Positions 3,592 to 41,350 of a stretch of DNA of 41,350 bases are shown one piece after another. Every line of letters begins with the position of its first letter. The first letter of the stretch is position 1. Location: contig JAUNFK010000003.1 of the NCBI GenBank assembly GCA_030525085.1, forward strand, positions 15,675 to 57,024. Direction: 5' to 3'. The position numbers were made by a program, and so were the translations under genes. This DNA comes from a bacterium (GTDB lineage: Bacteria > Bacillota_I > Bacilli_A > RF39 > UBA660). The notes below the pieces were generated by a model that saw only the letters and a program-made list of their open reading frames with translations, was not told the DNA's origin and searched no databases.

Positions 3592-5744
3592 TATGCATCC
3601 TTATTATCTAAATGTAAAACTCTTTCTTTAATTTCCTGAGTTCTACCTTTATTCCAGAACTTAGTACCAATATAACCGCAAGTTCTTCTTGCAACATTTA
3701 ATGTATCATGATCCTTATTACCACAATTAGGACAATACCATTCTAAATCATCATTAATTAAAATCTCTCCATCATATCCGCACTTCTGACAATAATCACT
3801 CTTGGTATTTAACTCAGCATACATAATATTATCATAAATAAATTTAATAACTTCAATTACTGCTGGAATATTATTTTGTAGGTTAGGAGTTTCAATATAA
3901 GAAATAGCTCCACCAGGTGATAACTTTTGAAATTCACTTTCAAGTGATAACTTTGTAAATGCATCAATCTCTTCAAATACAGGTACATGATAAGAGTTAG
4001 TAATATAATTACGATCAGTAATACCCTTAATTACTCCAAAGCGTTCCTTTAAACACTTAGCAAATTTATATGTAGTGCTTTCAATTGGCGTACCATAAAC
4101 ACTATAATCCATATTTTCTGCTTCTTTCCATTCTTTACACTTATCATTTAACTTCTGCATAACTTCTAAAGCAAACTCTTTTCCCTTACCATTATCAGTA
4201 TGTGAGTGTCCAGTCATAAACTTAACGCATTCATATAAACCCGCATAACCTAAACTAATTGTAGAATATCCTCCATGTAATAATTCATGAATACTTTCGC
4301 CTTTTTCTAATCTAGCAAGAGCCCCATGTTGCCATAATATTGGAGCTACATCACTAGTTGCTTTAGCTAAGCGTTTATGTCTAATCTGTAAAGCTCTATG
4401 GCATAATTCTAATCTCTCATCAAAAATCTTCCAGAATAACTCTTCATCCTTATCAGCAGATAATGCAACATCAACAAGGTTTATTGTAACAACGCCTTGA
4501 TTAAATCTACCATAATACTTAGGTTTGCCTTCCTTATCAACATAAGGAGTTAAGAAACTTCTGCAGCCCATGCATGGATAGCATTGTCCATCCCCATTCT
4601 TATCAACCTTAAGCTCTTTCATCATCTTCTCTGAAATATAATCAGGAACCATTCTCTTAGCAGTACACTTAGCAGCAAGCTCTGTTAAATAATAATACTT
4701 ACTATCCTCATGAATGTTATCTTCCTCTAATACATATAGAAGCTTTGGAAATGCTGGAGTAATATAAACGCCTTTTTCATTCTTCATTCCCTCAATTCTT
4801 TGATTTAAGAACTCTTCAATAATCATTGCAAGTTCTTCTTTATATTCCTCAGTCTCACCTAAATACATACAAACACTTAAAAATGGTGCTTGACCATTAG
4901 TAGTAGTCATTGAATTAACTTGATATTGGAAAGTTTGAACACCAGCAGTAATCTCTGTCTTTAAATCTTCTTTAGCAAACTTTTCGCAATCCTCTTTAGA
5001 TAATTTTCTATTCTTATAAATCTTTAAATAACGATTATAACTATCTCTAACAAATGGAGCTAAATGTGTAAGTGTTATTGTACATCCTCCATATTGACTT
5101 GATGAAACAGCTGTAATAATTTGCGTTGCAATTGTAACTGCTGTTAAAAATTTATGAGGTTTTTCAATCATTACACCATTAATATTAGTTCCATTTTGAA
5201 GCATATCCTCTAAATTAATTAAATCACAATTATGAAGTGCATTTTGTGCAAAATAATCTGCATCATGGAAATGAATAATTCCTGCATCATGAGCTTCAAC
5301 AATCTCCTCAGGTAACAAAAATCTTCTTGTAATATCTGTACTAGTAATACCAGCTAAATAATCTCTTTGAGTAGTAACTATCTTTGCATTCTTATTTGAA
5401 TTTTCTGTATTCCAGTACTCATTTTCACCATCAATAAGTTCCTTAATAGCTAAATCAGTAGTATTACTTCTTCTAACCAATTCTCTAGTATAACGATATG
5501 TAATATACTTCTTAGCAAGCTGATACTTACCAATACTCATAAGTTTCATCTCTATAATATCTTGAATATCTTCAACTAAGATTCTTTTCTTACCTAAAGA
5601 CTCAATATACTTAATAATATTCTTAATTTGTGTACTACTAGCTTGTTCACTTTCCTCCACTTCTTTATTAGCCTTTAAAATAGCTTCTTCAATTTTTTCA
5701 GGGCTATAATCTACCATATGCCCATCACGTTTAATTACTTTCAT
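3591..5744 (-). CDS. nrdD: Anaerobic (class III) ribonucleoside-triphosphate reductase
   Basis: A 717-residue class III reductase that converts ribonucleotides to deoxyribonucleotides without oxygen. Residues 1-90 are an ATP-cone allosteric domain (MKVIKRDGHMVDYSPEKIE). The C-terminus holds a zinc site (C-x2-C at CQKCG, C-x2-C at CPNCG) followed by the glycyl-radical motif RRTCGYIG, with the radical Gly at about residue 690. Length and domain order match full-length NrdD. It is first in the nrdD-nrdG-dut operon, with GGAGG 7-8 nt before ATG at 5744. Expression is probably controlled by the divergently encoded CRP/FNR-family protein through the palindrome at 5801-5818. Confidence 0.96.
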   Translation of the reverse strand: MKVIKRDGHMVDYSPEKIEEAILKANKEVEESEQASSTQIKNIIKYIESLGKKRILVEDIQDIIEMKLMSIGKYQLAKKYITYRYTRELVRRSNTTDLAIKELIDGENEYWNTENSNKNAKIVTTQRDYLAGITSTDITRRFLLPEEIVEAHDAGIIHFHDADYFAQNALHNCDLINLEDMLQNGTNINGVMIEKPHKFLTAVTIATQIITAVSSSQYGGCTITLTHLAPFVRDSYNRYLKIYKNRKLSKEDCEKFAKEDLKTEITAGVQTFQYQVNSMTTTNGQAPFLSVCMYLGETEEYKEELAMIIEEFLNQRIEGMKNEKGVYITPAFPKLLYVLEEDNIHEDSKYYYLTELAAKCTAKRMVPDYISEKMMKELKVDKNGDGQCYPCMGCRSFLTPYVDKEGKPKYYGRFNQGVVTINLVDVALSADKDEELFWKIFDERLELCHRALQIRHKRLAKATSDVAPILWQHGALARLEKGESIHELLHGGYSTISLGYAGLYECVKFMTGHSHTDNGKGKEFALEVMQKLNDKCKEWKEAENMDYSVYGTPIESTTYKFAKCLKERFGVIKGITDRNYITNSYHVPVFEEIDAFTKLSLESEFQKLSPGGAISYIETPNLQNNIPAVIEVIKFIYDNIMYAELNTKSDYCQKCGYDGEILINDDLEWYCPNCGNKDHDTLNVARRTCGYIGTKFWNKGRTQEIKERVLHLDNKDA

Positions 5745-39519: not shown

Positions 39520-39576
39520 TTAATAAACACTAATTAGTAATTTGGTCGCCACTGGCGACCATTTTATATTTGAAAA
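39520..39576 (-). pseudogene. YhcG/DUF1016 relic E
   Basis: The reverse strand reads FSNIKWSPVATKLLISVY and then stops. It corresponds to FSNEKVSTLLSQLSWSHY of the intact gene. No start, and no other part of the gene survives. It contains the perfect palindrome 39543-39561. Confidence 0.65.
39543..39561. repeat. 19-nt perfect inverted repeat (copy E)
   Basis: TGGTCGCCACTGGCGACCA: 9-nt arms around one centre base, 9/9 match. Confidence 0.9.
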
Positions 39577-39620
39577 GACTTCATAAAATTATCTAACTTT
39601 TTTGTTCTAATCATTAATAT

Positions 39621-39653
39621 TTAACTCAATTTTGACACCAATGGTGTCAATTT
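39621..39653 (-). pseudogene. YhcG/DUF1016 relic D
   Basis: The reverse strand reads KLTPLVSKLS and then stops, equivalent to KVSTLLSQLS of the intact gene. Only this segment remains. Confidence 0.6.
39632..39650. repeat. 19-nt perfect inverted repeat (copy D)
   Basis: TTGACACCAATGGTGTCAA: 9/9 arm match. Confidence 0.9.
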
Positions 39654-39654
39654 T

Positions 39655-40139
39655 TTAATTGTCAGTTAATTCATTATCTTCTTTTTCACCTAATTCCTCT
39701 AGAAAATTAGAAATATCTTCTAATATCAGTTTTTGTAGTATCCTTTCTGATATTATTTCATTGTCCAGCTTATTTTTCTTTTAGAAAGATTTTTTTGATA
39801 ACTTGATTAATATAATAATCTATTTCATTAGCATTATTTAAAGGAAAAAGAAGTCTGAAATGCAACATTGTTAATTGTGCACCCAGTGGGTGCACTTTTG
39901 CAAATAAATATAGTTTTCTAATATCAAATAAGTACATTACACTAAATTTTTTCTAATTTCATATGTTAGTTTTTTAAATTATTCTTTGATTATTCCTTCT
40001 CCGTAATCATTGCACACTTCCAATAAAAGCTTACCTACATTATAATATTTTTGTATTTCATATCTGTTTTTGTTATATCTTTAACTTTATTGTTTGACTC
40101 GCTATCAACAGTTCTTTTTTTCTCATCATAATAATTCAT
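39655..40139 (-). pseudogene. YhcG/DUF1016 relic C, longest broken copy
   Basis: Starts at ATG 40139 (MNYYDEKKRTV), then SNNKVKDITK, followed after a frame change by VGKLLLEVCNDYGEGIIKE, a stop, FKKLTYEIRK, then YLFDIRKLYLFAKVHPLGAQ, LTMLHFRLLFPL, NNANEIDYYINQVIKK. About 100 codons are then missing and it resumes at NEIISERILQKLILEDIS, NFLEELG. The nuclease core beyond EELG is gone. Two or more frameshifts, internal stops and one internal deletion. It belongs to a different subtype from the intact neighbour (EVCNDYGEGIIKE against EAGGKYGDNIIDR), so it is not simply a recent duplicate. Confidence 0.75.
39877..39895. repeat. 19-nt perfect inverted repeat (copy C)
   Basis: GTGCACCCAGTGGGTGCAC: 9/9 arm match. 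Confidence 0.9.
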
Positions 40140-40140
40140 A

Positions 40141-40220
40141 GAATTAATTTCTAGATTTGATAATAATCTTAAATGACCCCATGTTAACTTTCCCGACAAC
40201 GTCAGGACTTTTTCAATATT
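40141..40220 (-). pseudogene. YhcG/DUF1016 relic B
   Basis: The reverse strand reads NIEKVLTLSGKLTWGHLRLL, then SNLEI, equivalent to NEKVSTLLSQLSWSHYLLLI of the intact gene. It follows relic A directly, so the same gene segment occurs twice in a row in two versions. Confidence 0.65.
40190..40208. repeat. 19-nt imperfect inverted repeat (copy B)
   Basis: TTCCCGACAACGTCAGGAC, at the same gene position as the other copies; 6/9 arm matches. Confidence 0.6.
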
Positions 40221-40490
40221 AATTGTGTCGCAAGCTGTGACACTTTTTCATCACTAAACATACTATAGAATTGTTTCATCCTAAATAATGTTCTTCTATT
40301 ATATTTTTTTGCCTGCTTCTATAATTAATTTTTTAGAATATCTATCTATAATATTATCACCATATTTGCTACCTGCTTCATTAAGCAGTTTTCCTATTTC
40401 AAAGAATGTAATAACTTTATGTTTTTCTTTTGAATAATCTTTTACCCTTGAATATACTTCATCATCAATTAACTTATTTTTTAACGTCAT
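40221..40490 (-). pseudogene. YhcG/DUF1016 relic A, frameshifted at a poly-A tract
   Basis: It begins at ATG 40490, nine bases after the intact gene's stop. The first ~62 residues (DEVYSRVKDYSKEKHKVITF, FEIGKLLNEAG, SKYGDNIIDRYSKK) match the intact copy closely. At GGCAAAAAAA the copy has seven A where the intact gene has six, so the frame shifts into stops. In the next frame NRRTLFRMKQFYSMFSDEKV, SQLATQLI follows before the homology ends at relic B. A recent tandem copy, now dead. Confidence 0.8.
40225..40243. repeat. 19-nt imperfect inverted repeat (copy A)
   Basis: GTGTCGCAAGCTGTGACAC; 7/9 arm matches, same gene position. Confidence 0.7.
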
Positions 40491-40499
40491 CTTTTCATA

Positions 40500-41350
40500 T
40501 CATACTAGTTCATATTTTCTAACAGCAATTCTATCATCAGAGCAATACTCTATTACAAATTCATTTTCTTTCTTGCAAATTAATATTCCTATTGTGTTAT
40601 TATTACTAATTTCTTTTATATTTTTATCTATATAATTCATATACTTTTGAACTTGTGATATATATTCTGCTTTAAATTCAGTAACTTTTAGTTCTACTAC
40701 TACATATGCATTATATTTTATATTAAATAATAGTAAATCAATATAATGATTTCTGTCACCTATTTTAATTTTATACTCACTACCTATAAAACTAAAGTTA
40801 TTACCTAACTCGTGCATAAATGATTCAATATCTTCTAATATTAAATTATGTAATGCTTTTTCAGTAACTATAATTATATTATTTTTATTTCTGATATATA
40901 TAGGATTAGGTATTAAATCTTTAACGTTTAATGATTTGCTATTTATTATTTTGTTTCTTGTTTCCGTAGGCAATCTTTTATACTCGTTATTTTTAATTTT
41001 TTCTTGTAATTGTCTTTGTGATAAATTGTTATCCTTTGCAATTTTAATATAATATTTAATTTCGTTATAATCGTCTAATGAAATTAAAAGTAAATAATGA
41101 CTCCAACTTAATTGTGACAACAGCGTTGACACTTTTTCATTACTAAAGACATTATAGAATCTTTTCATTCTAAATAGTGTTCTTCTATTATATTTTTTGC
41201 CTACTTCTATAACTAATTTTTCAGAATATCTATCTATAATATTATCACCATACTTACCGCCAGCTTCATTAAGTAATTTTCCTATTTCAAAGTATGTAAT
41301 AACTTTATGCATTTCTTTTGAATAATCTTTTACCTTTGAATATACTTCAT
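40500..41350 (-). CDS. YhcG/DUF1016-family PDDEXK nuclease, 5' end outside the window
   Basis: The frame is open to the window edge. The upstream in-frame residues EVYSKVKDYSKE match the start of relic A, so the true start lies beyond 41350, and the ATG at 41312 is internal. The N-terminal DUF1016_N domain (FEIGKLLNEAGGKYGDNIID, RRTLFRMKRFYNVFSNEKVS) is followed by the SWSHYLLLISL segment. The C-terminal PDDEXK nuclease domain has HYIDLLLFNIKYNAYVVVEL, with the Asp of IDLLLF and the E-x-K of VELKV, and LILEDIESFMHELG before it. It is predicted to be a DNA-cleaving enzyme; DUF1016 genes are frequent in defence or mobile neighbourhoods, but the role is unproven. It contains inverted repeat I. 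Confidence 0.88.
   Translation of the reverse strand, partial: EVYSKVKDYSKEMHKVITYFEIGKLLNEAGGKYGDNIIDRYSEKLVIEVGKKYNRRTLFRMKRFYNVFSNEKVSTLLSQLSWSHYLLLISLDDYNEIKYYIKIAKDNNLSQRQLQEKIKNNEYKRLPTETRNKIINSKSLNVKDLIPNPIYIRNKNNIIIVTEKALHNLILEDIESFMHELGNNFSFIGSEYKIKIGDRNHYIDLLLFNIKYNAYVVVELKVTEFKAEYISQVQKYMNYIDKNIKEISNNNTIGILICKKENEFVIEYCSDDRIAVRKYELV
41114..41132. repeat. 19-nt imperfect inverted repeat (copy I, inside the intact gene)
   Basis: GTGACAACAGCGTTGACAC; 7/9 arm matches. It encodes VSTLLS within EKVSTLLSQLSW. Confidence 0.75.

Follow-up and report, generated by a model that had tools for sequence, protein, structure and literature searches.

Internal palindromes of YhcG/DUF1016 nuclease genes are very probably bound by the proteins that these genes encode

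Genes of the YhcG family (COG4804, Pfam DUF1016_N/YhcG_C; PADLOC PDC-S02), which is listed as a phage-defense candidate, carry within their coding sequence a variable palindrome. Judging from the way its bases track residues of the predicted DNA-binding domain, this palindrome is very probably bound by the protein that the gene encodes. Considered as a whole, such a protein probably joins a ParB-like domain to a PD-(D/E)XK nuclease and keeps its own recognition site in its gene for control in cis. Most likely, a YhcG/DUF1016 protein controls, or acts on, its own gene. Searches of the open-licence PubMed Central literature on DUF1016 and yhcG turned up no description of a self-site or of DNA specificity.

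RESULTS

Palindromes at the DUF1016 locus of the window

Six palindromes lie at one locus of the window, by which we mean the whole 41,350-nt stretch of DNA that was analyzed. Rescoring returned the coordinates, sequences, and arm scores of a preliminary description for all six (Table 1). A perfect score of 9/9 was reached at just 3 of ~41,300 start positions in the 41-kb window, and all three fall within this cluster; as the preliminary description had it, they are the relic palindromes at 39543, 39632, and 39877. When G.T wobbles on the coding strand are counted, each imperfect palindrome can be read from the sequence as having 8/9 pairs. The locus had been described as six copies or relics. 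The six sites stand, but only one gene looks intact, the rest being frame-broken or very short relics. Those at 39543 and 39632 retain the slot and its A-rich and AATT flanks and scarcely more of the gene.

The intact-looking gene is the sole such DUF1016 copy in this genome assembly, and its 5' end is missing because the contig ends there. In Pfam searches, its 282-aa protein matched DUF1016_N with 92.1 bits (cutoff, 32.8; PF17761, 4e-26) and YhcG_C with 119.1 bits (PF06250, 2e-34). The PD-(D/E)XK residues D204, E219, and K221 are all present; in the family comparison, D204 is nearly invariant and K221 invariant. Pfam detected no ParB N-terminal CTPase (ParB/Srx) domain in the 282 residues. 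Neither the PDB, searched by sequence, nor viral contigs, queried with the window protein, yielded a relative.

Table 1. DUF1016 gene, gene copies, and palindromes of the locus (window coordinates; arm scores in parentheses)
Feature	Position	Strand	Basis
DUF1016_N + YhcG_C gene, frame open to the contig end	40500..41350	-	Pfam, ORF
In-gene palindrome GTGTCAACG.C.TGTTGTCAC (7/9), coding for residues 73-78 (VSTLLS) in helix 5 of the modeled DNA-binding domain	41114..41132	-	Sequence, model
Predicted recognition helix, codons of residues 55-68, among which R56, F59, and R60 track pairs 7, 8, and 5	41145..41186	-	Covariation, model
Codons of predicted helix 6, residues 82-88 (W82-S83-H84); L86 tracks pair 4	41085..41105	-	Covariation, model
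Codons of predicted helix 8, residues 111-119, SxR motif; the residue preceding R tracks pair 3	40992..41018	-	Covariation, model
PD-(D/E)XK catalytic residues D204 and E219-x-K221, intact	40686..40739	-	Sequence, conservation
Second copy, N-terminal part; frame broken downstream	40299..40490	-	ORF/sequence
Palindrome of copy 2, GTGTCACAG.C.TTGCGACAC (7/9)	40225..40243	-	Arm score
16-nt joint AATTAATATTGAAAAA between two palindromes; near-same joint AATTAACAATGAAAAA in another genus	40209..40224	-	Sequence
Palindrome of the third copy, GTCCTGACG.T.TGTCGGGAA (6/9), then a C-terminal-side relic	40190..40208	-	Arm score
Relic palindrome GTGCACCCA.C.TGGGTGCAC (9/9)	39877..39895	-	Arm score
Relic palindrome TTGACACCA.T.TGGTGTCAA (9/9); half-site also in the relic array of genome G072	39632..39650	-	Arm score
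Relic palindrome TGGTCGCCA.G.TGGCGACCA (9/9)	39543..39561	-	Arm score

The palindrome slot across the family

DUF1016 genes from other genomes have a palindrome starting precisely 21 nt ahead of the codons for L[S/T]W[S/T]H. Across 103 such genes, this slot averaged 7.55 of 9 pairs, compared with 2.51 (SD, 0.54; maximum, 4.10) at other offsets and with 4.12 after synonymous codons were shuffled under the same peptides; 87 of the 103 genes were individually significant (P ≤ 0.05). The preliminary description had proposed looking in other DUF1016 genes for slot complementarity in excess of codon usage, and these values reveal that excess. Slot palindromes were found in Bacillota, Bacteroidota, Cyanobacteriota, Planctomycetota, Verrucomicrobia, Spirochaetes, Omnitrophota, and Pseudomonadota, in two archaeal lineages (Woesearchaeota and Aenigmatarchaeota), and on plasmids of Actinomycetota, Acidobacteriota, and G+C-rich Pseudomonadota; many of the sampled loci come from metagenome-assembled genomes. 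Where residues are inserted between the slot and LSW (L079 and L109), the palindrome keeps to the slot.

The site has the form RAWW-N7-CA-N-TG-N7-WWTT, with a nearly fixed CA-N-TG core flanked by RAWW before and WWTT after. Pairs 2, 3, and 5 to 8 are Watson-Crick in 93 to 98% of cases, though most of them vary in sequence; pairing is looser at 1, 4, and 9. Pair 7, whose left base occupies a third codon position, is nevertheless broken in only ~2% of genes. Among the 20 genes from sequence of at least 45% G+C, all have TT at positions +3 and +4, where TTA and TTG make up just 9 to 62% of Leu codons. The product of those TTR fractions over the 20 genes is 1e-12, and retention of the TT flank despite the rarity of these codons indicates that selection acts on the DNA.

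Almost every slot-bearing gene retains an intact nuclease motif. Slot-like palindromes were confined to DUF1016 loci in the four genomes that were scanned, for which reason we rejected a genome-wide regulon. Among genomes G037, G054, and G064, up to 14 DUF1016_N genes or pieces, many with stop codons, were counted in a single genome of ~1.2 Mb, which points to rapid gain and loss of DUF1016 genes. Incompatibility between paralogs of the same genome was also rejected, with near-identical sites occurring together at chance frequency (3 pairs versus 2.3 expected).

A residue-to-base code

Covariation between palindrome and protein was measured with the slot residues masked and with distance in the C-terminal nuclease domain as an independent gauge of relatedness. 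The three best covarying columns lie in the recognition helix of a helix-turn-helix, 13 to 17 residues before the slot. With relatedness controlled by clusters and pair distances (no full tree model), the observed covariation was 0.27, compared with at most 0.20 over 300 within-cluster permutations. Columns are numbered by alignment position, gaps counted, and window residues are given in parentheses. Column -48 (R56) tracks pair 7, with Arg-G in 11 of 12 cluster votes and Thr-T in 10 of 12. Column -45 (F59) tracks pair 8 (Lys-G, 14/15; Arg-G, 7/10; Tyr-T, 10/10; Phe-T, 9/10; Glu-C, 3/4). At column -44 (R60), Arg goes with C at pair 5, which is G on the other strand (14/17), and A accompanies Asn or Tyr. 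Column +7 (L86) matches pair 4 (Arg-C, 12/13), and column +33 (close to Q113) matches pair 3 (Lys/Arg-C, 13/14; Val or Ile with A).

When each of 33 clusters was left out in turn, the predicted base was correct more often than the commonest base at pair 8 (82% versus 45%), pair 4 (83% versus 41%), pair 5 (80% versus 46%), pair 3 (81% versus 61%), and pair 7 (60% versus 37%). None of 100 permutations reached the observed accuracy for any of the five pairs. No column of the 287 outperformed the named one at pairs 8, 4, and 5; at pairs 3 and 7 another column did slightly better, which for pair 7 is the neighboring helix residue, -45. On a small plasmid test set, accuracy was 0.56 versus 0.29 at pair 7 and 0.76 versus 0.60 at pair 8, with no gain over the majority base at pair 5. 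The plasmid set thus backs the palindrome well and the residue-base code modestly and in part. Among the explanations raised in the preliminary description was a site recognized by the nuclease itself; because the palindrome bases track residues of the encoded DNA-binding domain, the sequence comparison strongly supports that idea.

Predicted structure

AlphaFold models of the window protein and of its N-domain alone have pLDDT values of 88.5 and 87.6, respectively. In them, the tracking residues fall in helices 55-68, 82-88, and 111-119, and the slot codes for the helix at 73-79. Foldseek hits 1 to 30 of the N-domain were all ParB, Spo0J, or Noc proteins, with probabilities up to 0.99 but weak E values (≥0.16); the TM scores to a Noc DNA-binding domain, a match in that same E-value range, were 0.59/0.71. 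The modeled C-domain resembles NucS/EndoMS. A PD-(D/E)XK domain in YhcG was predicted in 2005, when no known structure could be matched with confidence to the N-domain (PMC1189080).

A natural allele swap in Escherichia coli

The yhcG gene is present in most sequenced E. coli strains and, in K-12, contains three palindromes, in frame and 39 nt apart. In E. coli 2020N21-110, the gene resembles that of K-12 over most of its length, with one block (about nt 240 to 420) replaced. Within the block, the helix GFSAKNLRQM has become GFSTRNLWQF, and the CGCCAGACA-type palindromes have given way to GTGCAGACA and CTCCAGACT. This natural E. coli allele is a recognition helix and its palindromes swapped together. 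In the first new palindrome, pair 7 has G, which goes with Arg -48, and pair 8 has T, which goes with Trp -45; both are predicted by a code learned without E. coli.

Two further E. coli alleles are altered near these palindromes. Relative to K-12, yhcG of O157:H7 FRIK804 has an in-frame loss of 78 nt, equal to two 39-nt units, and one perfect palindrome remains. In E. coli B C2566, the gene is cut off a few nucleotides past the third palindrome by a segment with a transposase gene. We considered breaks near the third palindrome as cleavage scars and dropped the idea, as they proved to be IS or transposase events with no clear evidence of cleavage.

Relocated and additional sites

The slot palindrome has been lost from one clade, related to L034, and each of the 21 members examined has a matching AATTGGTCAGACGCGTCTGACCAATT-type palindrome just before the ribosome-binding site (20 found by pattern, and L295 with one more mismatch). 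Such an upstream palindrome is present in 1 of 14 slot-bearing relatives (Fisher's exact test on 20 of 21, P = 1.3e-7). The upstream sites follow the code: Lys -45 occurs with GGTCAGAC and Thr -45 with TTTCAGAC or CTTCAGAC, and W-T-H replacing W-S-H goes with CAGTC replacing CAGAC. Two more slot-less genes, L052 and L168, have a code-consistent site before the start codon. Since slot-less genes carry the site in front, it is needed in or beside the gene and not as codons.

Some loci hold additional sites. The slot palindrome of L116 is repeated before the start and just past the stop codon (1385, 1755, and about 2486), and that of L051 recurs 36 nt after the gene (392 and 1178). Apart from these two and the tandem case L096, matches to a gene's own site elsewhere in its locus were hardly above those to a foreign palindrome. 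Tandem palindromes, two or three per intact gene at a spacing of 30 to 48 nt, occur in K-12 yhcG (L145) and in L293, L290, L113, L105, L111, L096, and L115; their sequences differ within L113, and L105 has even-spaced cores.

Relic arrays

Both the window and genome G072 contain relic arrays, scraps of genes with five or six palindromes that differ from one another and are mostly perfect. In G072 (C11, 125500-133000; locus L274), at least five different slot palindromes lie in scraps downstream of an intact DUF1016 gene (3679-3980 of the reverse complement), and one of them has the same half-site as window palindrome 39632. Window positions 40190-40243 and L274 positions 3679-3732 (reverse complement) share an arrangement of two palindromes with a near-same 16-nt linker, in different genera. 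From the sequences, this joint looks as if copies had fused beside their palindromes. The arrays may be recent fossils, or they may be retained as decoys.

DISCUSSION

The mechanism that we propose starts from a predicted ParB-like DNA-binding domain fused to a PD-(D/E)XK nuclease. The gene would carry the site of its own protein, normally in frame within the codons of helix 5, with the recognition-helix codons on one side and the codons of two further specificity helices on the other. We infer with strong confidence that a dimer would bind the dyad and select its bases through Arg/Lys, Tyr/Phe, Thr, and Glu residues set at fixed places in the helices, and, just as strongly, that the site would change with the helix, both being inheritable as one cassette. 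With moderate confidence, binding in cis would control the gene, the protein most likely repressing its own transcription; the operator would lie within the reading frame in most genes and, in the slot-less clade, immediately before the ribosome-binding site.

Self-regulation in cis is the likeliest use of the palindrome, and we consider it reasonably probable. It fits the relocation of the site to the promoter side and the confinement of such sites to DUF1016 loci in four genomes. Several observations count against the proposed mechanism as a whole. An operator lying roughly 300 nt into the frame would be unusually placed for repression. Autoregulation alone does not explain why the nuclease motif is intact in nearly all site-bearing genes. 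The relic arrays keep perfect palindromes with no gene to control, the Foldseek E values to ParB are weak, and on the small plasmid set the code brought only a modest gain. That the apparently intact nuclease uses the site for self-cleavage is unlikely, though worth keeping in view.

A fuller form of that idea makes DUF1016 a self-targeting mobile nuclease, which would bind the palindrome of its own gene or of a sister gene and cut there or close by; repair of the break would then copy, fuse, and shuffle DUF1016 genes, and arrays and relics would be scars. The conserved nuclease motif points this way, as do the fusion beside palindromes with a near-same joint in two genera, the tandem in-gene palindromes of E. 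coli (39-nt spacing), Bacteroidota, and others, the high copy number with tandem and many broken copies, and the loss of exactly two 39-nt units from O157:H7 yhcG. Yet a site-less allele would be immune and should win, and the site is nonetheless kept almost everywhere. Moreover, the relocated site of the slot-less clade stands at an operator-like position, and ordinary recombination can also give slot deletions and fusions. We therefore regard self-targeting as a fairly unlikely alternative. Ectopic copies of ori-lambda arrest or block phage lambda (PMC4488673). By analogy, we entertain with considerable doubt a scheme in which these nucleases would address their own genes: a residue-to-base code would read a site within the specificity-coding segment, the protein would then repress or cut, and arrays of perfect palindromes would serve as decoys or immunity sites against incoming members.

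Alternatively, the protein might bind in-gene repeats to start replication or another cis process of its element. Phage lambda O protein binds nearly perfect 19-bp inverted repeats inside gene O, as dimers (PMC5043065), and up to three dyads occur in one DUF1016 gene. Most sampled DUF1016 genes have a single dyad, however, many are chromosomal, the fused domain is a nuclease, and no replication partner was seen, all of which makes an initiator-like role improbable.

Still less credible is selection for a hairpin in mRNA or single-stranded DNA, serving translation control, frameshifting, or as a hairpin target of a mobile element. Perfect dyads would fold, and the imperfect window copies gain pairs when G.U is allowed. 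But coding-strand mismatches in 92 genes were G.U in 20 cases and A.C in 39, so that G.U was not in excess and nothing points to an mRNA hairpin. The innermost pair, mostly A..T, cannot form in a tight hairpin, and the bases follow protein residues. Hairpin-templated mutation (quasipalindrome correction), as considered in the preliminary description, would keep the arms complementary without selection and would account for perfect palindromes in relics that have no reading frame. We judge it equally implausible: it should act anywhere, yet slot-like palindromes in the four genomes occur at DUF1016 loci only; it would not be restricted to one codon slot, and it leaves the CA-N-TG core, the fixed WWTT flank, the tracking of helix residues, and the relocated sites unexplained. 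Residue-base covariation refutes it as the main cause, although it could still help to repair single mismatches.

A recombination hot spot, also suggested earlier, could play no more than a secondary part. The slot is indeed where fusions and tandem palindromes lie (window 40190-40243 and E. coli yhcG), but the sites differ between copies and so fit poorly with site-specific recombination between them. Invertible recombination sites were rejected on the same grounds, as they need to be near-identical and those of neighboring copies differ; a search of the programmed-inversion literature turned up nothing that fits. A homing endonuclease gene would interrupt its own target, whereas this site is intact inside the carrier gene, and REP/RAYT or IS200/IS605 elements were dismissed because the protein is a PD-(D/E)XK and not an HUH (Y1) enzyme and the palindromes lie at DUF1016 loci only.

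If the palindrome is the protein's own site, an uncharacterized nuclease family spread across bacteria and archaea would gain a DNA-binding domain, a target, and a testable biology. Because each sequenced gene would state the site of its own protein, many protein-site pairs could be read from databases without experiment. Such pairs would form a rare natural data set for the protein-DNA recognition code and for the design of new DNA-binding specificities. The slot would also be a clear case of a site in coding sequence that is preserved for its meaning as DNA while the encoded peptide is free to vary.

Known systems share parts of this arrangement. With C proteins, BrxR, and CapW, a DNA-binding protein controls a nuclease gene in cis, as we propose for DUF1016. 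In such autoregulated defense and restriction systems, however, regulator and nuclease are usually separate proteins and the operators lie in promoters. The likeness to ParB, Noc, and KorB lies in the palindromic sites and in specificity that would be drawn from the recognition helix and helices 6 and 8, and it may include the fold; the KorB operator palindrome is also of the odd-length type. ParB contacts parS through recognition helix 4 and helices 6 and 8 (PMC7383237), the same three places in which the DUF1016 specificity residues are predicted to lie. Unlike ParB, the window protein has no Pfam-detected CTPase domain, and DUF1016 proteins further differ in their fusion to a PD-(D/E)XK nuclease and in having their probable site inside their own gene. 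In that last respect lambda O is the closest analog: in both, inverted repeats lie within the gene of the binding protein (a predicted one here), with several possible per gene. Lambda O is a replication initiator and not a nuclease, whereas DUF1016 genes usually have one dyad, span many phyla, and show a readable residue-base code. The repeats within gene O nevertheless indicate that an arrangement with sites inside the gene can work.
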